A DNA stretch of 39,598 nucleotides from a virus: the IMG/VR virus record IMGVR_UViG_3300022745_000013, positions 1 through 39,598 of that record; one strand, 5' to 3'. Of this stretch, positions 7,653 through 22,388 are shown piece after piece (the first letter of the stretch is position 1; each line of letters begins with the position of its first letter). The notes beneath the pieces were generated by a model that did not search any database, was not told the DNA's origin, and was given only the letters and a program-made list of their open reading frames with translations. Both the position numbers and the translations under genes were made by a program.

Positions 7653-7888
7653 TTCATGTCATCCTGCATCTTGTCCCACTCCTCGATCTGGCGCATCTTG
7701 TATAGGCATGAATCAATCATTTCTTCCAAGTCATGCACCATCCATGCCCTGAAGTTGAGTTGGTTGTTTCTCAGGCTTACGCCGTATTTCTTCAAACCTA
7801 AGCGCTGGCGTTGAGCAATAATTCTTGCCAAGTCCCCTTCCGTCCCTTCCAGGCGTAGAAAGCCTCCGTCCACTTCAATAGTTGTCAT
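7649..7888 (-). CDS. MazG-like small phage protein
   Basis: 79 aa. The middle part, RQRLGLKKYGVSL then RAWMVHDLEEMIDSCLYKMRQIEE, matches the pattern of short phage proteins grouped with all-alpha MazG-like NTP pyrophosphatases (GLxKYG ... EExxD). The usual acidic cluster is only partly present, so activity is uncertain. It lies between NinG and the zinc-ribbon gene with 4-bp overlaps on both sides. Confidence 0.6.
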   Translation of the reverse strand: MTTIEVDGGFLRLEGTEGDLARIIAQRQRLGLKKYGVSLRNNQLNFRAWMVHDLEEMIDSCLYKMRQIEEWDKMQDDMK

Positions 7889-8418
7889 AACCTTGCCTCC
7901 AATCGTTTAACTTTCTTGCGGAAAACCTTGATAAGCCTCTCCAGGTACTCAATGTCGTAACGGGTTAGCTGGTTTTGTCCCATGAGCCAATCCAACCTTT
8001 CCTGCCCAATGCGCTCCAAGATGCGCGGCCTGTAACCCTCAAGGTTTCCGCTTTTGTGGTTGTTGCAGATAGAACAACCCTTGTGGATATTCCAAAGGTT
8101 GAAGCGCACAGAAGAAGCTGCACCAACACTGCGGAAGTGGGATGCGTGCCACTGACCATCCCAAGTAGCAGGACGCTCACAGGAGCAGCAAGGCAAATCC
8201 TTATCCCGTAGCCGAACGTACTTGTTCACGATGGCTTGGGCTTCAGACAACCATTGCTGGCGACTCTTTATTGCCTTCTTCCTAGCCTTGGTGCGCTCTG
8301 CTTCTTCTTTCTTTGCAGCCTTGACTAGCCTGCTTGCGCACATAACTCCGCAAACATTCTGGAGTGGACGGACAGGTGTAAAGCAGGCTCCACAGTGCTT
8401 GCAGGTTTTATCCTTCAT
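7885..8418 (-). CDS. ninG: NinG-like recombination protein
   Basis: 177 aa from the ATG at 8416-8418. It begins MKDKTCKHCGACF with an N-terminal Cys cluster. A lysine/arginine-rich helix follows, then CCSCERP, HASHF and CSICNNHKSGN, the HNH-like zinc region typical of NinG (Rap), which in lambda promotes RecBCD/Red recombination and acts on branched DNA. An upstream in-frame start at 8472 is less likely because it would overlap ninB by 65 bp. With this start the overlap is 11 bp. The ninB-ninG order matches lambdoid phages. Confidence 0.88.
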   Translation of the reverse strand: MKDKTCKHCGACFTPVRPLQNVCGVMCASRLVKAAKKEEAERTKARKKAIKSRQQWLSEAQAIVNKYVRLRDKDLPCCSCERPATWDGQWHASHFRSVGAASSVRFNLWNIHKGCSICNNHKSGNLEGYRPRILERIGQERLDWLMGQNQLTRYDIEYLERLIKVFRKKVKRLEARL

Positions 8419-8803
8419 GGAAGACAACCCCTTTATCTGCACCGAAAGCCAGAGCCAATTCCAGTAGCTCACTCATTTCCTCTTTTGTCATCTTGGAAGT
8501 GGATAAGCCAAGGACTACGAAACCACCATCCACTCCTGGCACTGTCTTTTGCTTCCTAAGTGAAGCAGTCAGCATGGTTTTCCAATCGTCTGCGGTTAGC
8601 TTTTCCCCGTACCAATCGACTTGGTTGGCTATGTCCGTCAGTGCTGCCCACATCAAGCGGTTTTGCTCGTTGCTGCGCTTTTCCTTGCGGACAGTTACTT
8701 GAAGACGGTGGCCTGCTATCAAGTAAGGCTTAACAAGTGCCCACAAGTCTGAAAGTGCCTTGTGCCCCTGTTGTGCGTTGTATAGGGTGTAAGTGCTACT
8801 CAT
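8408..8803 (-). CDS. ninB: NinB-like recombination mediator
   Basis: 131 aa. NinB (lambda Orf) binds SSB-coated single-stranded DNA and helps recombination. Typical motifs are KEKRSNEQNRLMWAAL near residue 40, LTADDWKTMLTASL near 70, and GFVVLGLSTSKMTKEEMSEL near 100. The start at MSSTY is chosen because its ATG overlaps the upstream stop (ATGA). A longer reading from 8827 would overlap more of the upstream gene. The ninB-ninG pair fits the lambdoid early operon. Confidence 0.88.
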   Translation of the reverse strand: MSSTYTLYNAQQGHKALSDLWALVKPYLIAGHRLQVTVRKEKRSNEQNRLMWAALTDIANQVDWYGEKLTADDWKTMLTASLRKQKTVPGVDGGFVVLGLSTSKMTKEEMSELLELALAFGADKGVVFHEG

Positions 8804-8949
8804 GCTTTCAATGCCTTCAATAGCCAATCGTCATACGCAGCCTTGGGACTAGAGCCACCGCCAGTAATCATTCCTCCGGCACATATCCACCACTGGTACT
8901 CCCATCCACAATCGAAGAATCGGCCTTTCATGTAAATGCGGGGCTTCAT
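8800..8949 (-). CDS. Small conserved phage protein, 49 aa
   Basis: MKPRIYMKGRFFDC, then WEYQWWICAGG and GGGSSPKAAYDDW. The tryptophan-rich centre followed by SPxxAYxxW resembles short proteins found in many phage early regions with no known function. Its start overlaps the upstream stop, and its stop overlaps the ninB start (both ATGA). This is strong evidence that it is translated. Confidence 0.65.
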   Translation of the reverse strand: MKPRIYMKGRFFDCGWEYQWWICAGGMITGGGSSPKAAYDDWLLKALKA

Positions 8950-9149: not shown

Positions 9150-9306
9150 AAATCCCACGGGATGGCTTGTGGACTACTCCCTCTTGCCACAAGTCCCTCA
9201 GTGTTTGGTAGCACTGGCGATAGCTCCAGCCTGTAATCAATTCAAAGTCTTGAAATGACAATGGGCCATGCTGGAGCACGAGGATTGCTGCGCGGCGTTT
9301 AGTCAT
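9136..9306 (-). CDS. Minimal winged-helix protein, 56 aa
   Basis: MTKRRAAILVLQHGPLSF, FELITGWSYRQCYQTLRDL, WQEGVVHKPSRGIYAV: this is almost exactly one winged-helix domain and nothing else. The GPxS...TG pattern recurs in the proteins at 7201 and 17611. The ATG overlaps the upstream stop and has a good GGAGG ribosome site (TTGGAGGTTGTATG). Probably a small transcription regulator. The target is unknown. Confidence 0.7.
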   Translation of the reverse strand: MTKRRAAILVLQHGPLSFQDFELITGWSYRQCYQTLRDLWQEGVVHKPSRGIYAVR

Positions 9307-9737
9307 ACAACCTCCAATGCGCGTTTTGCCATTGCAATAGTTGCAGGAGTGCCGCGAGAAGGGTTTGCCAGCAAGTCACGCGCCCATTGCTTGCAGTCAA
9401 CACGTTGAATAGGTGTTTCCCACTTTTCACGCAACGGGGCCAACTTTGCCAACTCAGCAGCAAGTCGCGCTGGATCGGCTTTAGGCTCTGGCAACTTCAA
9501 TGCTTCAGGAGAAGGTGCGGAATAGCACAACTTCTTAAACTCGATTACGTTTGGGCAACGCTCTGGCAAATTCTCCAATGCCCATGCAATCCGGTGAAGG
9601 CTGTTTGCATAAGCGGACAACTCATGCGCCCATACCGTTTTAACGTCACCAATGGGGCTTTCTCCAAGCGATCTATCCCACGCTGCACCATAGGTAGCGG
9701 CAAGGCGTTTAAACAGCCTATCGATGGCTTTATCCAT
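9303..9737 (-). CDS. Replication protein P-like helicase loader candidate
   Basis: 144 aa. It follows the O-like initiator with an 8-bp overlap, the position of lambda P, which loads the host DnaB helicase. The N-terminal part, IDRLFKRLAATYGAAWD, IGDVKTVWAHEL and RIAWALENLPERCPNVIEFK, follows a pattern seen in P-like proteins of betaproteobacterial phages. It is shorter than lambda P (233 aa). Assignment is by position plus moderate motif resemblance. Confidence 0.6.
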   Translation of the reverse strand: MDKAIDRLFKRLAATYGAAWDRSLGESPIGDVKTVWAHELSAYANSLHRIAWALENLPERCPNVIEFKKLCYSAPSPEALKLPEPKADPARLAAELAKLAPLREKWETPIQRVDCKQWARDLLANPSRGTPATIAMAKRALEVV

Positions 9738-10560
9738 TTATCACCTCAATTCGTTTAACAGGGATGTCAATCACGTTTAGGACGTTGCTGTCAGGATGAG
9801 ACTCGCCTGTCATTTCTTCCCAACGCTCACGGGCTTTGCGGGAGTCGCGCTCCTTAAAGCTCTCAGGTTGCTTTGATTTGCCTTTTGGTGGCAGTGCAGC
9901 AGCAAGCCAATCAAGTGGCTGAAGTGGTTTTGCACGAATGCATTCACGCAATGCGTCAACTACTGCGTCATCGCCGTGCTGCTTACGGAGTCCACCAAAG
10001 AAGGACCGCGCTTGTTTGTCAGTTGAGCCAGCGTTAACCAACAACGGAATCCCGTAAGAGAAAATGATTTCGCTTGTGGAAAGCGCCGCTTTTGCGGCTG
10101 TACCTTTAGGTACAGAAGAATCAGGAATCAGTGAATCAGTGTTAAGGGAATCAGGAATCAGTGAATCAGGCGGATTTCCACGGTGCTCGTACGGTGAATC
10201 ACTAGGCTCTAACGGTTCTTTAACCGTTATTTCACCGTTAATGTCTGGAATGACTGAGTGTTTTTCAGTGTGGTGCGGCCTTTGGTGCTTGTGCCAATTC
10301 GTTACTTGCACGTACTTTGTGCCGTTAACTTCATAGCGAATAATGAAGTTCTTGGCTGCAAGCTGCGCCAACATTGCTTCAACATCAACATCATCAGCAG
10401 GGAAGACGTTTATCTTGATCTTCTTTGGACGGTCTTCTAGTCGGCCTTCACGGTCTGCAACTGTCCACAGTCCAGCAAAAAGTAGTCGCGTGGCGAAATC
10501 AAGCTCAACCATGTCTTCATTGCAGAAGAATCCAGGCTTAATATTTCTTGATCTAGCCAT
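9730..10560 (-). CDS. O-like replication initiator carrying the phage origin
   Basis: 276 aa from the ATG at 10558-10560, which overlaps the upstream stop in TAATG. Residues 1-110, starting MARSRNIKPGFFCNE, form the winged-helix DNA-binding domain of phage replisome organisers. Residues about 125-150 contain a repeated (P/T)DSLIPDS peptide that encodes the DNA iterons. The C-terminal half has a DnaT/primosome-like ARSFFGGLRKQHGDDAV segment, which probably contacts the helper protein encoded next. The position of the iterons inside the gene is as in lambda O. Confidence 0.82.
   Translation of the reverse strand: MARSRNIKPGFFCNEDMVELDFATRLLFAGLWTVADREGRLEDRPKKIKINVFPADDVDVEAMLAQLAAKNFIIRYEVNGTKYVQVTNWHKHQRPHHTEKHSVIPDINGEITVKEPLEPSDSPYEHRGNPPDSLIPDSLNTDSLIPDSSVPKGTAAKAALSTSEIIFSYGIPLLVNAGSTDKQARSFFGGLRKQHGDDAVVDALRECIRAKPLQPLDWLAAALPPKGKSKQPESFKERDSRKARERWEEMTGESHPDSNVLNVIDIPVKRIEVING
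10085..10240. other. Putative phage replication origin with iterons and hairpins
   Basis: Inside the initiator gene, two 22-bp copies (10118-10139 and 10148-10169) each hold three GAATCAG heptamers, giving six in 52 bp. They are flanked by perfect inverted repeats: GCCGC/GCGGC at 10085-10098, TGTACCT/AGGTACA at 10099-10114, and AACGGTT/AACCGTT at 10211-10228. Direct iterons within the initiator gene match the lambda and P22 plan. Origin function is inferred. Confidence 0.65.
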
Positions 10561-10829
10561 TACGCTACATGGCTCCATGATTCGTAAGAAAGAACCTTTT
10601 CAACCGTACGAACATGGACTCCGTACGCTTTAGCTAGTGCTTCATTACTAAGGTTTTCGCGGATATGCTTCTTTAAGTTTTCACGCTGTTTTGCTGCGCT
10701 ACGGATTGAAACAACGTCCAAATCAAGCAGTTTTGCGTGATTCAACTCTTGGCCCCGTCGAGCCATAGAACGGGCGCGAGAAAGGTACTCAGACCTTTCC
10801 AGCACTGAATCAGGGCGATGCTGTTTCAT
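10560..10829 (-). CDS. Small helix-turn-helix protein
   Basis: 89 aa. The C-terminal part, RENLSNEALAKAYGVHVRTVEKVLSY, is a clear helix-turn-helix of the type found in resolvase and NUMOD tails. The N-terminal part is basic and helical. It lies between the methyltransferase and the initiator, overlapping both (ATGA and TAATG). It may regulate the operon or target a DNA-modifying neighbour. No specific function is visible. Confidence 0.68.
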   Translation of the reverse strand: MKQHRPDSVLERSEYLSRARSMARRGQELNHAKLLDLDVVSIRSAAKQRENLKKHIRENLSNEALAKAYGVHVRTVEKVLSYESWSHVA

Positions 10830-13051
10830 GCCATTTCCATTTCAAACAGACCAACCTGCTCCCGTTCAGCGTCTGCAATGTTATGGCAGGCCAATTCCCA
10901 GTACTGTGGCTTCAACTCCGTACCAACAAACTTGCGGCCCATCTTCACAGCGCAATAGCCCTCAGATCCAATTCCGGTAAAAGGAGAGAAAATCAAATCA
11001 CCCTTATTCGTCCAAAGGTGAATGCAACGCTCGATCACATCAAGCTGAAGTGGGCACATGTGCTTTTCGTCGTTCTCATCACGGGCAGGCAACTTGTTCA
11101 AAGTGCGGCCCTGATTGATGTCGTCCCAGATAGGGCTTGCATACTTTTGCCACATCATCACTGGCAAGTCATCACCGTGCGTAACCCGTTCTTCGCAGTC
11201 TCCAGGCTTACGCATAGTCACAACGTAGTCAGGAAGTCCCATGCGGCTCATGGTGCTGTTTTCGCGGATGGTCTTGTGCAACAGTCCCAGTGCCTTTGTA
11301 CGCTGCATTGCAACTACCGGGTCTTTCCAGATTGCGACTTCCGAGTGGTAGATAAATCCGGCGTCTTGGAATGCACGAATCAAATCACCTCGGAAATCAC
11401 GCAGTCCGATAAACCCTTGACGCATCTTGGTTGTCGGAAGATTCATGCAGTGAAAAGACACATTGCGTCCAGGCTTCAACACACGGAACAACTCAGCAAT
11501 CAGGAACTTCAACTGCGCTACAAACTCATCGTCACCTTTGCAATTTCCCATATCGTGATCTGAGTTTGAGTACACAAACAGATCAGCAAAAGGAGGGGAA
11601 AAAACCGAGTAATCAACACTGTTTGATTCCATGCGTCGAGAATGCTTTACGCAGTCTCCTAGGTACACAGTGAAGTTCTCAGACTTATGAACATCCTCGC
11701 GGTATTCATCAACAATGTTTGATTGGCCTGCCAGTTCGTTATTCATAATGTCTTTCATGTGTTCAATCATTTGTGCGCTCATCTCATGGTGTTGCACTTC
11801 TTTGCGTTTCAGGTTGTCAAGAATCTGGCCTTCGTTTTCAGCTGTAAAAAGGTGAACTTGAACGGATCGCTTTTGTCCAAACCGATATGAACGGCGAACA
11901 GCTTGATAAAACTTCTCGAATGAGTCATCCAGCCCCACAAATGCCATCCGAGCGCAGTGTTGCCAGTTCATTCCAAACCCTGCTATCTTTGGCTTTGAGA
12001 TAAGAACGCGAACTTCGCCATGAGCGAAACCAAGAAGATTCTTAGACTTGGATTCGGGTGAATCTGAACCTTGAACGTTTACAGATCCTTCAATGAGCGA
12101 TTGAAGATATTCAGCCTCATCGTTTAAGTGAGTCCAAATCAGCCACGGCTCGTTTGGCTCTGAATTGACTATCTTTGCAAGTGCTTGGCATCGTGCTTCA
12201 ATGGAATCACGCTGCGCCTTTCGGCGTTCAAGCATCGTCCGTGCAGGACGGGCGAACAACTCATCTCCAAGCTGCTCAGTCTCCACAACATGCTCAAAAT
12301 ATTGAAGCGGTGGAAGCTCATAGCGTGAGCCATCGAAACCAATATCAGAAGGATTACGGAGAACAACAGCCCATCCACCCATCCACTCCCAAAACTTAGA
12401 AGCACCCCATCCCTTGAGTCGCCATGTCCCTGTGTCGCCGGTATCGTTGACAAAATAAGTTGCCAGCATCTCTGTGCGTGTCATAACACCTAGAAACTCA
12501 CACTGGTTTCCTAGTTCCTCAAAGTCATTAGGGCTTGGTGTAGCTGTGCAGCTAAGACGATACGGGACGGATTGGCACGATTCAATGATCGCAGTGCGCG
12601 TCTTTCCGTTATGGCTTTTCAGGATGCTCGATTCGTCAAGAACGATGCCATGTAGCTCAGTGAAGTCGATTACATCAATGCGCTCATAGTTCGTAATCCA
12701 TACGCCAGGAGCGTTAGGAGTCTCACCTGCAGGAACCCGCTTAACTTCAATGCCAAATGTCTTACCCTGCTCAATGGTCTGCTCAGATACAGCCAATGGC
12801 GCAAGAATCAGAACAATTCCACCAGTATGCGAATGGACCTCATCAGCCCATGAAAGCTGCATAAGCGTCTTACCTAGTCCGGTGTCTGCAAAGATCGCAG
12901 CACGTCCACGACGAACAGCCCAACTCACAATGGCGTGTTGAAAGTCAAACAAGTTCTCATTCAAGTCACCAGGTCGATGCCCAGTTGCTACCTCAGTGCG
13001 GCGCTTGCTTTTTACAAACGTCTCGTAATCATCTAAAATCAATTCACTCAT
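10826..13051 (-). CDS. SNF2-type helicase fused to DNA methyltransferase
   Basis: 741 aa from the ATG at 13049-13051 (AAGG upstream). An in-frame ATG at 13126 is possible. The helicase half has TGLGKT at 57-62, LDESS at 138-142, TATP at 169-172 and the SNF2 motif VI QAVRRSYRFGQ at 383-393. The methyltransferase half has the catalytic SPPF at 485-488 and the later AdoMet-binding FSPFTGIGSEGY near 688-699. The catalytic motif comes before the cofactor motif, the order of beta-class enzymes, and SPPF favours N4-cytosine or N6-adenine amino methylation. It lies early in the replication operon. Likely role: methylating phage DNA against host restriction. No nuclease motif is visible. Confidence 0.9.
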   Translation of the reverse strand: MSELILDDYETFVKSKRRTEVATGHRPGDLNENLFDFQHAIVSWAVRRGRAAIFADTGLGKTLMQLSWADEVHSHTGGIVLILAPLAVSEQTIEQGKTFGIEVKRVPAGETPNAPGVWITNYERIDVIDFTELHGIVLDESSILKSHNGKTRTAIIESCQSVPYRLSCTATPSPNDFEELGNQCEFLGVMTRTEMLATYFVNDTGDTGTWRLKGWGASKFWEWMGGWAVVLRNPSDIGFDGSRYELPPLQYFEHVVETEQLGDELFARPARTMLERRKAQRDSIEARCQALAKIVNSEPNEPWLIWTHLNDEAEYLQSLIEGSVNVQGSDSPESKSKNLLGFAHGEVRVLISKPKIAGFGMNWQHCARMAFVGLDDSFEKFYQAVRRSYRFGQKRSVQVHLFTAENEGQILDNLKRKEVQHHEMSAQMIEHMKDIMNNELAGQSNIVDEYREDVHKSENFTVYLGDCVKHSRRMESNSVDYSVFSPPFADLFVYSNSDHDMGNCKGDDEFVAQLKFLIAELFRVLKPGRNVSFHCMNLPTTKMRQGFIGLRDFRGDLIRAFQDAGFIYHSEVAIWKDPVVAMQRTKALGLLHKTIRENSTMSRMGLPDYVVTMRKPGDCEERVTHGDDLPVMMWQKYASPIWDDINQGRTLNKLPARDENDEKHMCPLQLDVIERCIHLWTNKGDLIFSPFTGIGSEGYCAVKMGRKFVGTELKPQYWELACHNIADAEREQVGLFEMEMA

Positions 13052-13116: not shown

Positions 13117-13314
13117 TTACTGGCATGCCTTTGGTTGCACACCGAAGTACCTTTTCAGCTTGCCTTCCTGCTTCTTCAGGATCGTCCAGCCCTGCTCCTT
13201 TAGGTCTGAAATTCGACGGTGGGGACTGACAGAAGGAAGCACGGCAGCAATGTCCACGCTGGTGCAACCTGATTTGCGAAGAAGCAACTTCTTCAGCTTG
13301 TCCTGTTGGGTCAT
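13117..13314 (-). CDS. Small winged-helix/HTH protein
   Basis: 65 aa. KLKKLLLRKSGCTSVDIAAVLPSVSPHRRISDLKEQGW is a compact winged helix, followed by KKQEGKLKRYFGV. This pattern is common in phage early genes, where short proteins regulate transcription. It starts 17 bp after the Cro-like gene and is the second gene of the PR-like operon. The stop lies in the region of possible upstream starts of the helicase-methyltransferase gene. Confidence 0.68.
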   Translation of the reverse strand: MTQQDKLKKLLLRKSGCTSVDIAAVLPSVSPHRRISDLKEQGWTILKKQEGKLKRYFGVQPKACQ

Positions 13315-13331: not shown

Positions 13332-13544
13332 TTAAATTGCAGGTTGACTAAGCAAAAACGCAGGCTTACGCTTTGCCTTCCTTGCGGTCTTGATTCGCAT
13401 GGATGCACCGTTAACCTGATCTGCTATTGATTGCGGAAGCACTTCAGGCCACATATAGATGGCTTGCACGGTCTTGTAGCCCATCGCTTCAGCGGCTTTT
13501 TTTGGCGTACCACCAAGGAGATTGATTGCGTCTGTTTTTTGCAT
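13332..13544 (-). CDS. Cro-like repressor
   Basis: 70 aa. MQKTDAINLLGGTPKKAAEAMG, YKTVQAIYMWPEVLPQSIADQV: this is the helix-turn-helix of the short Cro/YdaS-type proteins. It ends in a basic tail. It is divergent from the CI-like gene at 13615 across a 70-bp region carrying two dyads, the standard arrangement of a lambdoid switch. No good Shine-Dalgarno sequence precedes the ATG. Confidence 0.8.
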   Translation of the reverse strand: MQKTDAINLLGGTPKKAAEAMGYKTVQAIYMWPEVLPQSIADQVNGASMRIKTARKAKRKPAFLLSQPAI

Positions 13545-13552
13545 ACGCTGAA

Positions 13553-13570
13553 TTGTAATAGGAATTACAA
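13553..13570. promoter_or_regulatory. OR-type operator, TTGTAAT dyad
   Basis: Perfect inverted repeat TTGTAAT-AGGA-ATTACAA just upstream of the Cro-like gene. The same half-sites recur at 14238-14290, upstream of the rightward operon, so both operons are probably controlled by one repressor. Confidence 0.7.
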
Positions 13571-13614: not shown

Positions 13615-14040
13615 ATGACAACCTACGGTGAAAGACTTGCCAAAGCTATGGCACACAGAAGCGCTCAGTTAGGGCGTGAGGTGTCGCGGCTTGAGTTGGC
13701 GAATGCCGCTGGTTGCTCAAGGCAAAACATAGGAATGATCCTCACCAACGCGCAGGGCGATCAAAGACTTTCCACGGAGAAACACGCAAAAGCTGCGGCG
13801 TTTCTTAAAGTGAATGCTGATTGGTTGCTAGACGGTACTGGAGAAATAGATTCCCCCAAGCACTACACGCTGACAGCAGAGCCAGGTGAGTACAAGCGGG
13901 ACGTATCAGGGCCAGCCAGAGAAATTGCCAAGCTCTACGACTTGATACCGGAAGGTGACTTGGTTAAGCGCGCTCTAGCCTATAACGCTGCGACTCAAGC
14001 GATTCTGGACGTACTCCAAGAGAAGAAACCCACCGAGTAA
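13615..14040 (+). CDS. CI-like phage repressor lacking a peptidase domain
   Basis: 141 aa. The N-terminal helix-turn-helix is YGERLAKAMAHRSAQLG, SRLELANAAGCSRQNIGMIL, then an extended helix ending VNADWLLDGTGE, the typical end of a CI DNA-binding domain. The remaining 65 residues contain no S24 (LexA-type) peptidase motif, so RecA-stimulated self-cleavage is not expected. No Shine-Dalgarno sequence precedes the ATG, which fits a leaderless transcript. It is followed by its own terminator at 14087-14112. Confidence 0.85.
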   Translation: MTTYGERLAKAMAHRSAQLGREVSRLELANAAGCSRQNIGMILTNAQGDQRLSTEKHAKAAAFLKVNADWLLDGTGEIDSPKHYTLTAEPGEYKRDVSGPAREIAKLYDLIPEGDLVKRALAYNAATQAILDVLQEKKPTE

Positions 14041-14237: not shown

Positions 14238-14290
14238 TTGTAAATTTATTTGTAATTCCTATTGCTTTTTGCTTGTAAACCGTATTACAA
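14238..14290. promoter_or_regulatory. OL-type operator cluster and rightward early promoter
   Basis: Three related sites: a TTGTAAA half-site at 14238, TTGTAATTCCTATT at 14250-14263 (identical over 14 bases to the complement of the 13553-13570 operator), and the dyad TTGTAA-ACCGTA-TTACAA at 14273-14290. TATTACAAT at 14283-14291 could be the promoter -10. The cluster is 35 bp before the first gene of the plus-strand operon. Confidence 0.7.
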
Positions 14291-14873: not shown

Positions 14874-15121
14874 TGAACATCCAAACAGAATTTGTAAACC
14901 CACCTATCCCAGTCCGCAGATACGACTGGACTGCTATTGATGTGGACACATACGACGAAGAGACAGGCAAGCCCGCTGGATACGGAGTGAGCGAGGAATT
15001 CGCCATTGCGGACTTGATGGGACAGCTTGGAGCTAGTTGCACAGACATAGCTGAAGAGTTGGCAGGTCGTGGCTTCACTGATGCACAGATCGCCAAGGTA
15101 ATGAATACGGAGGTTGTATGA
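14873..15121 (+). CDS. Hypothetical protein, 82 aa
   Basis: Starts MNIQTEFVNPPIPVRRYDW, then an acidic segment DVDTYDEETGKPAGYG and a helical half with ELAGRGFTDAQIAKVMN, which looks like a short helix-turn-helix or UBA-like fold. It overlaps both neighbours by 1-4 bp. Unknown function. Confidence 0.62.
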   Translation: MNIQTEFVNPPIPVRRYDWTAIDVDTYDEETGKPAGYGVSEEFAIADLMGQLGASCTDIAEELAGRGFTDAQIAKVMNTEVV

Positions 15122-15603
15122 AGCCGCACCCAGAGTTTCAAGACTACTTGTTTGACGAACAAGGTAATGCTTACCGCAAGAAGAAAAGTGGAAAGCTAAT
15201 AAAGCTGATCGGAACAAAGTGCGGTAACGGATACAGGGCTATTTCGTTTTGTGTGAATGGCGTTTATCTGAAGCGTGAGTACATACACAGAATGGTTTGC
15301 AAACTGTTTAACGGCGGTGACGGTGTTGGATTGCATTGCAGGCACCTTGACGGCGACATAACAAACAACGCAGCTTCAAACCTTGCATGGGGCACACCAC
15401 TAGACAACGCAGCAGATATGAAGCGGCACGGAACAACAGCAAAAGGTGAGCGCAACCCAATGGCTGTTTTGACTGAAGAAAAGGTAAAGGAAATGCGTAA
15501 GGTTCGTAGCGAATCTGGAAAAACCTATTTGCAAATTGCAAATGAATTCGGAGTTTCAAAAATGACTGCATTTCGTGCAGTTACACAGAGGGCATGGATA
15601 TGA
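15118..15603 (+). CDS. HNH homing endonuclease with C-terminal HTH
   Basis: 161 aa. The HNH_3-type core is HRMVCKLF, then CRHLDGDITNNAASNLAWGT (residues about 77-96), with the His, Asp and Asn positions of the fold. The C-terminal helix-turn-helix is TYLQIANEFGVSKMTAFRAV. Free-standing enzymes of this type cut DNA lacking them and spread by repair. It fits into the operon with 4-bp overlaps at both ends, unusually neat for a selfish insertion. It is related in design to the HNH gene at 34837. Confidence 0.88.
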   Translation: MKPHPEFQDYLFDEQGNAYRKKKSGKLIKLIGTKCGNGYRAISFCVNGVYLKREYIHRMVCKLFNGGDGVGLHCRHLDGDITNNAASNLAWGTPLDNAADMKRHGTTAKGERNPMAVLTEEKVKEMRKVRSESGKTYLQIANEFGVSKMTAFRAVTQRAWI

Positions 15604-21212: not shown

Positions 21213-21390
21213 GTTGCATCAAGTCACTGGATACGCCCGTCCTACTTCGCAGGCAGCTTGGCTGAAAGAGCATGGCTTGCCGCACCGATTGGACAGGGGT
21301 AGAGTGATTGTTTCCCGTGTCCATGTCCAGGCATGGCTGGAAGGCCGCGAAGTAGTCTCCAATGGCTTACGAATGGAGTTTGTGAAATGA
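21187..21390 (+). CDS. DUF4224-like protein, possible excisionase
   Basis: 67 aa from the ATG at 21187 (MSEFLNQSELHQVTGYARPT). The pattern LhqvTGyarPtsQaaWLkehG...RgRViVSR is that of DUF4224, a small wHTH-like family often next to integrases. It overlaps the integrase start (ATGA) and the previous gene by 26 bp. A recombination-directionality role is inferred from size, fold and position. No experiment is implied. Confidence 0.72.
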   Translation: MSEFLNQSELHQVTGYARPTSQAAWLKEHGLPHRLDRGRVIVSRVHVQAWLEGREVVSNGLRMEFVK

Positions 21391-22388
21391 ACAAGTACCC
21401 AAAGCTGAGAACCCATGTCCGTAAAGGTGCAAACGGGCAGCGTTGGGTTTCTTATTACTACGATATGCGCGGAACCGGAGAGAAAGACATTCCTCTAGGC
21501 AAAGACTATGCCAAGGCTTTGGAGCAATGGGACAAGATACACAACCAAAAGCCGCTGACACAAGGGCGTATTCAGGAAGCGTTTGACAAGTGGAAGGCAG
21601 ACTGCCTGCCACTCTACACCGTTAAAGGGACAAGGGACGTTTACAAAACCAACCTGAAGTATCTGGAGCCTGTGTTTGGGCAGGCCGGTTGGCATGAAGT
21701 AACCCTGCCAGTGATTTGCCAGTACCTTGACAAACGAACCGCCAAGACGCAGGGGAATCGTGAAATGTCTGTGCTGTCTATTGTGTGGAACAAGGCTCGG
21801 AAATGGGGCATGACAAACCTGCCCTTCCCTGGATTCGGCGTTAAAGGCTGGAAGAACCCAGAAAAGAAGCGCAAGAAGGAAGTGCGTGACGTTGTATTTG
21901 ATGCCATCTATGCACACGCCAGCCGTGTATTGAAAGACTCGATGGACATTGCAACGGCTACGGGAATGCGGATAACGGACGTTAGGACGATTCTGATGCC
22001 GGTGGACGGGCAGATACAGCTTAGAGCCTCAAAAACGGCTAAAGGAGCTGTATTTACAGTGTCGGAGTCGCCAGTATTGACTGCCGTTGTTAAGCGCAGG
22101 GAAGCCATGAAAGCGCATTCTGTGATGCTCCTGTGTACGGATTCAGGCAGGCAGATAAGCGAAAAAGCACTTTGGCATCATTGGGACAGGGCAAGGAAAG
22201 CCGCAGCCGAAGCCAATCCACTGTTGGCAGAAGAGATTCTGAGCATCTACAACAGGGATATGAGAAAACGTGCAGCAGACTTGTCCAATGACTTGGAAAG
22301 TGCCTCTAAGCTACTCCAGCACTCCAATCCCAAGGTGACAGAAGACCACTACCGGACGAAGCCGGTGAAGCTGAAAGCGGTACGTTAA
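21387..22388 (+). CDS. int: Tyrosine integrase
   Basis: 333 aa from the ATG at 21387. The arm-binding N-terminus is MNKYPKLRTHVRKGANG and the core-binding domain is about residues 55-160. Catalytic residues visible: R195 in TGMRITDV, K216 in ASKTAKG, R293 in RDMRKRA, H312 in LLQHSNP and Y322 in EDHYRT. The residue normally His before the second Arg is R290, a substitution also seen in other phage integrases of the RDxRxKAA type. The gene is the last of the PL-like operon and points at attP, 6 bp downstream. Confidence 0.92.
   Translation: MNKYPKLRTHVRKGANGQRWVSYYYDMRGTGEKDIPLGKDYAKALEQWDKIHNQKPLTQGRIQEAFDKWKADCLPLYTVKGTRDVYKTNLKYLEPVFGQAGWHEVTLPVICQYLDKRTAKTQGNREMSVLSIVWNKARKWGMTNLPFPGFGVKGWKNPEKKRKKEVRDVVFDAIYAHASRVLKDSMDIATATGMRITDVRTILMPVDGQIQLRASKTAKGAVFTVSESPVLTAVVKRREAMKAHSVMLLCTDSGRQISEKALWHHWDRARKAAAEANPLLAEEILSIYNRDMRKRAADLSNDLESASKLLQHSNPKVTEDHYRTKPVKLKAVR

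Follow-up and report, generated by a model that had tools for sequence, protein, structure and literature searches.

The gene at positions 10826 to 13051 on the minus strand of a 39,598-base viral sequence (IMG/VR record IMGVR_UViG_3300022745_000013, here called the window) encodes a SNF2-type translocase fused to a beta-class DNA amino-methyltransferase (MTase), in an intact frame of 741 amino acids (aa) plus stop with no internal stop codon. The protein is a further member of a common, annotated but biochemically uncharacterised phage family, and represents no new kind of system. We propose, with a probability of about 0.5, that it acts as an orphan modification enzyme, in which a double-stranded DNA (dsDNA) translocase feeds an MTase along newly replicated phage DNA, sparing this DNA from host restriction.

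Motor and methyltransferase on one chain

An alternative reading from an upstream TTG would give a protein of 813 aa, but this start is less likely, because a purine-rich ribosome site (AAAAGG) lies directly upstream of the ATG at 13051 and the best-matching relatives align from the first residue of the 741-aa chain onward. Fewer than 40 residues lie N-terminal to the motor (residues about 27 to 440; 11732 to 12973, minus strand), which comprises two RecA-like lobes and a helical insert and was recognized by Pfam through SNF2-rel_dom (PF00176; residues 38 to 189, 2.7e-07, 30.4 bits versus a cut-off of 24.9) and Helicase_C (residues 288 to 392, 8.1e-06), both above their gathering scores. It is followed by the MTase domain (residues about 453 to 741; 10829 to 11695, minus strand), delimited by Pfam and by the structural model, with N6_N4_Mtase (PF01555) at residues 479 to 721 likewise above its gathering score (3.7e-15; 56.9 bits versus a cut-off of 26.7). 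The initial annotation had placed a set of helicase and MTase motifs on this one chain, and every one of them is present there in the order given, all on the minus strand: Walker A TGLGKT (T57 to T62; 12866 to 12883), Walker B LDESS (L138 to S142; 12626 to 12640), motif III TATP (T169 to P172; 12536 to 12547), motif VI QAVRRSYRFGQ (Q383 to Q393; 11873 to 11905), MTase motif IV SPPF (S485 to F488; 11588 to 11599), and MTase motif I SPFTGIG (residues 689 to 695, including F691TGIG695; 10967 to 10987). The order of the last two, SPPF before FTGIG, is that of the beta class and, together with the PF01555 score, bears out the earlier assignment of the MTase to this class of amino-methyltransferases. 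The target-recognition position (residues 615 to 660; 11072 to 11209, minus strand) is short, and conserved instead of variable.

Structure prediction with AlphaFold2 gave a mean pLDDT of 88.9 and a pTM of 0.81 for the whole chain. The best match of the predicted motor among solved structures was the INO80 ATPase (Z 33.0, 372 aligned residues, 3.1 Å), and ISW1 and SNF2h matched as well, with Z scores of about 29 to 33 across 360 to 390 residues at about 3 Å. These predicted likenesses agree with the Pfam result in pointing to a motor of the SNF2 dsDNA-translocase type, as had been claimed from the motifs. When modelled alone (pLDDT 89.7), the MTase resembled TTHA0409 most closely (2zie; Z 27.2, 222 aligned residues, 2.1 Å), with further matches to CcrM (Z 24.1), MboIIA (23.7), a rotifer N4-cytosine enzyme (23.3), PvuII (22.5), and the type III Mod subunit (4zcf; 20.5). 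Both N6-adenine and N4-cytosine enzymes are thus among the closest solved MTases, and matches to the NCBIfam adenine models were weak and far below cut-off. Given that SPP(F/Y) is the commoner signature of N4-cytosine MTases, the SPPF motif slightly favours N4-cytosine over N6-adenine as the predicted product.

Both active sites are conserved well beyond the window. Across 232 homologues, G58, K61, D139, E140, A170 to P172, G360, N362, Q383, R387, and R390 are invariant, SPPF occurs in about 95%, S485 is retained in 226, and SIPF is found in seven; with the motif residues fixed or almost fixed throughout this set, the motifs are no product of chance. Purifying selection is strong in the motor and in the MTase, with dN/dS values from close pairs of 0.057 and 0.038, respectively, and of 0.028 in the recognition stretch (residues 576 to 660). 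Among relatives of the 45 to 70% identity class, conservation peaks in the MTase loop at residues 576 to 614 (68%), whereas residues 615 to 660, the recognition position (49%), vary no more than the second lobe of the motor (48%). Motifs IV and X are also separated by a nearly constant distance (175 to 199 residues in 198 of 221 proteins). In DNA methyltransferases, it is usually the recognition domain that varies, which would make the constant recognition stretch of the fusion unusual.

A widespread family, fused or split

The PHROG 16 profile, annotated as "DNA helicase," matched the protein with an E value of 1.1e-73 and aligned residues 9 to 738 with profile positions 250 to 924 of 986, thereby spanning both domains. 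A tblastn search matched 358 GenBank phage records, 304 of them at a query coverage of at least 80%, although redundancy, with 147 records from Mycobacterium and 85 from Flavobacterium, means that these counts are not independent; the homologues in phage records are about 31 to 53% identical to the window protein. Relatives are also encoded on at least 600 IMG/VR contigs and at 126 loci of species-representative genomes, the classified ones mostly from Bacillota, Bacteroidota, and Pseudomonadota. Altogether, carriers include phages or prophages of Pseudomonadota, Bacillota, Bacteroidota, and Actinomycetota, cyanobacterial phages, and viruses of methanogens. Some of the actinophage copies are already annotated as "DNA helicase/methyltransferase fusion protein," and the coupling of SNF2 motors to MTases in phages was described in 2017 (Iyer 2017, PMC5512222), the only paper on helicase-methylase fusions that we found to bear on phage fusions. 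The fusion is therefore no surprise. For the members of this family, we found no literature data on tested function, methylation, recognition motif, or protection. The interest of the family lies in its wide distribution and in its design, a small single chain that joins a motor to a methylase as in type I and type III restriction systems and P1 DarB, minus the cutter.

The initial annotation had named as its own refutation that all homologues be split genes and the window copy a frameshift. Instead, 193 of 247 loci examined are fused, about 42 are split, two are frameshifted, and the other 10 are mostly cut by contig ends. (A script had scored 44 loci as split; two were removed whose break falls within the MTase domain and is frameshift-like.) That the single chain in the window arose artefactually from two genes, through misassembly or a frameshift, could appeal to the split loci, but it is ruled out by the relatives, and we give it a negligible probability: all 72 proteins that share more than 70% identity with the window protein are fused, IMG/VR relatives at 78 to 93% identity align in one frame among the matches listed, and the whole chain is predicted to fold as one confident model.

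Where the genes are split, the break lies mostly at the domain border, at about residue 450 to 458. In 34 of the 37 pairs in which the helicase gene comes first, the spacing is between -42 and +11 bp, with an overlap of 4 or 8 bases in most pairs, an arrangement suggestive of translational coupling; the other three carry inserts of 385 to 643 bp. The MTase gene comes first in five further split loci. FastTree trees of 93 representatives imply at least 12 to 15 changes between the fused and the split state, and in the same set the motor and MTase distances correlate with r = 0.80 (permutation maximum, 0.21), or 0.76 for split pairs alone. A query with the motor only matched 331 phage records, 24 of which belong to distant Streptococcus phages, and in the one Streptococcus phage inspected a separate MTase gene lies a few ORFs downstream of the motor. 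The two parts co-occur in fused and split loci alike and therefore travel together, whether fused or not.

The statement that the chain lacks a nuclease also held, since a Pfam scan detected no nuclease domain in the window chain or, in answer to the proposed check for homologues with an added nuclease, in 13 diverse members of the family. Fused ORFs have a median length of 750 aa, 90% of them not exceeding 793 aa, and the two longest hold intein-like inserts. One such insert interrupts the motor exactly within Walker A (GLGK|GQPYETP...VTHN|T) in a 1145-aa protein from IMGVR_UViG_3300018018_000144, and another lies at a different site, MTase motif X (HV|CLARGS...VVKN|CPLQF), in the 1341-aa gp60 of Mycobacterium phage Pacc40, whose motor also contains a long low-complexity insert. 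In phages Minnie and Veteran, the counterpart of Pacc40 gp60 bears the annotation "anaerobic ribonucleoside reductase," a name that the intein may explain.

Genomic surroundings

An integrase gene (21333 to 22388), together with genes for major head, scaffold, portal, and large terminase proteins, shows the window to be a temperate tailed phage. An 86% identical relative of the fusion lies in a metagenome-assembled genome sampled from the same order as a Janthinobacterium genome, which is why we propose that the host may belong to the Burkholderiales. The leftward operon opens with a Cro-like regulator (13332 to 13544, minus strand; PHROG 409, 4.7e-05), divergent from a repressor-like gene (13615 to 14040, plus strand). 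A perfect 14-nt inverted pair, AATAGGAATTACAA and TTGTAATTCCTATT, at 13557 to 13570 and 14250 to 14263, flanks the repressor-like gene and possibly represents the operators of the genetic switch. Between the cro-like gene and the fusion lies a 65-aa HTH-like ORF (13117 to 13314, minus strand), which overlaps, in a different frame, with the extra N-terminal part of the improbable 813-aa reading of the fusion.

Downstream, the stop codon of the fusion overlaps by 4 bases with the ATG of an 89-aa ORF (10560 to 10829, minus strand), as in a tightly packed operon; this ORF has an HTH-like C terminus and no family match in Pfam or PHROG. A gene for an HNH (homing-type) endonuclease (15118 to 15603, plus strand), located upstream of Erf, clusters with this ORF, perhaps through a shared HTH. 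The replication initiator that follows (9730 to 10578, minus strand; PHROG 16167, "replication initiation protein," 3.1e-54) is lambda-O-like in position and contains iteron-like direct repeats, GAATCAGGAATCAGTGAATCAG, in a 15-nt register at 10118 to 10169. A 144-aa ORF (9303 to 9737, minus strand) occupies the lambda P position and was assigned by position, having no Pfam or PHROG match, and further along are a NinB/Orf recombination mediator (8408 to 8827, minus strand; PHROG 72, 1.9e-36) and a NinG/Rap junction endonuclease (7885 to 8472, minus strand; PHROG 171, 2.6e-77). Erf and SSB genes are encoded on the strand opposite to the fusion. The PHROG 16167 match, the repeats, and NinB and NinG confirm the earlier placement of the fusion next to the initiator and iterons, within a replication and recombination module.

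The neighbours of the fusion were surveyed in the 177 related loci whose flanks extend for 5 kb or more. A replication or recombination family (initiator, SSB, Sak4, Erf, ExoVIII, Cas4 exonuclease, NinB, NinG, DnaC-like loader, or clamp) was found nearby in 111 of them, the replication systems differing between loci (an initiator; Sak4, SSB, and Cas4 exonuclease; a DnaC-like loader; or a clamp). This adjacency to several unrelated replication systems weakens the suggestion, also made from the window, that the fusion marks the origin. At six related loci, a large ORF of about 770 to 850 aa lies a few genes downstream of the fusion; one of these ORFs is primase-helicase-like, and all differ from the replication genes of initiator type seen in the window. 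In 34 of the 177 loci, the same region also holds a gene for a C5-cytosine methyltransferase (PHROG 363, PF00145) of heterogeneous length (264 to 763 aa), and many such phages thus carry two unlike DNA methylases.

Proposed function and comparison with known systems

Under the modification reading, the fusion would probably be made early from the replication operon of the temperate phage, an expectation that the initial annotation drew from the position of the gene. Judging from the families of the two domains, the N-terminal SNF2-type motor would use ATP hydrolysis to move along dsDNA without cutting it, and the C-terminal MTase would methylate bases on their exocyclic amino group (N4-cytosine or N6-adenine) within a short target, one that much of the family probably shares. 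Their coupling may allow newly replicated phage DNA to be scanned, or cleared of proteins, and quickly methylated, and the methylated DNA would then be spared by host restriction enzymes, both in the cell and in progeny virions. This reading is favoured by active sites that are both intact and near-invariant in the 232 proteins, by strong purifying selection in both domains, and by a motor and an MTase that are rarely separate and whose distances correlate. The predicted folds, that of the motor resembling dsDNA translocases (INO80, ISW1, SNF2h) and that of the MTase resembling TTHA0409, CcrM, MboIIA, and PvuII, would also suit it, and the C5-cytosine MTase in 34 of 177 loci is what would be expected under restriction pressure. 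It is weakened by the constancy of the recognition position across very different hosts, given that copied local specificities should vary. It is tempting to speculate that phages of bacteria and archaea share one fixed short target, or a very relaxed specificity, in which case the fusion would be a portable, near-universal module for anti-restriction or DNA marking that needs no match to the restriction specificity of each host; we regard this extension as unlikely.

The main rival to the modification reading, although a doubtful one in our estimate, is that the fusion is an accessory of replication or recombination, its motor remodelling forks or the intermediates of Erf, NinB, NinG, and SSB while methylation marks phage or new DNA, with the main benefit going to replication. 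Surroundings such as those found in 111 of 177 loci fit this role equally well, and a constant recognition stretch would fit a fixed housekeeping target. However, the replication systems that accompany the fusion are of several kinds, the phage already encodes an initiator, and many unrelated early genes share the region. The remodellers Mot1 and INO80, which displace proteins, are among the nearest solved motors and raise a different prospect, namely that the translocase strips restriction or defence proteins off phage DNA and the MTase is secondary. This is improbable, as the MTase is the more strongly conserved part and is present in every complete close relative.

Even less probable is that the fusion serves prophage exclusion, marking the lysogen and sensing or blocking unmarked invading DNA much as a BREX-like system, or a restriction system devoid of its nuclease, might do. 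Host restriction and defence systems do combine SNF2 motors with MTases (PMC2292703), and one is a helicase-methylase-ATPase system (PMC11705971), but no effector is fused here, the gene follows the cro-like gene in what is predicted to be the lytic operon and does not accompany the repressor, and PADLOC matched the fusion mainly with generic Type II MTase models.

The closest counterparts of the fusion are members of its own family. Mycobacterium phage Sarma624 gp65 (PHROG 16) has the same motor-then-MTase order, aligned across residues 9 to 738, in a similar non-structural (early-type) position, whereas in its clade SIPF replaces SPPF and MTase motif X is preceded by a longer stretch than in the clade of the window. 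Synechococcus phage S-CBS3 gp40 and Caudoviricetes vir525 protein 7 are full-length fused homologues with 50 to 52% identity, but their replication neighbours differ from those in the window (a RepA-like hexameric helicase in S-CBS3). Outside the family, TTHA0409 (2zie, from Thermus) aligns with the MTase end to end and shares the short recognition stretch, with SPPY as its motif, but is a stand-alone protein, entered as "putative modification methylase."

Restriction and defence systems share parts of this architecture. Type III restriction-modification (EcoP15I Mod/Res) likewise combines a beta-type Mod fold with an SF2 motor; the fusion differs in having no Res nuclease, in its SNF2-type motor, in its fused parts, and in a short, constant recognition stretch in place of a large variable recognition domain, and is thus not of this type. 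Type ISP (LlaBIII-like) enzymes have an N-terminal Mrr-like nuclease and a gamma-class MTase, whereas the fusion has no nuclease and is of the beta class. The HMA defence system consists of a helicase, an m5C methyltransferase, and a third ATPase (PMC11705971), and the fusion, with its amino-MTase, falls outside it. Prevotella orphan MTases with a SNF2 neighbour (PMC5608340) and Wolbachia WO phages carrying a SNF2 helicase and a methylase (PMC3173496) offer outwardly similar pairings. The phage precedent for the anti-restriction idea, by analogy, is P1 DarB, which protects DNA in cis and whose MTase is coupled to a SNF2-like motor; translocation-coupled methylation has been proposed for this type of dyad, and anti-restriction was shown for DarB (PMC5512222). 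Like the fusion, the DarB-type (polyvalent methylase-helicase) dyad unites a SNF2-like motor and an amino-MTase on one phage chain. However, it places a gamma-class NPP(Y/F) MTase before the motor and carries LPD36 in a very long, virion-borne protein (PMC5512222), whereas the fusion is of the beta class, motor first, and 741 aa long. These differences in MTase class and domain order weaken DarB as a precedent, and the likeness is therefore one of design and not of membership.
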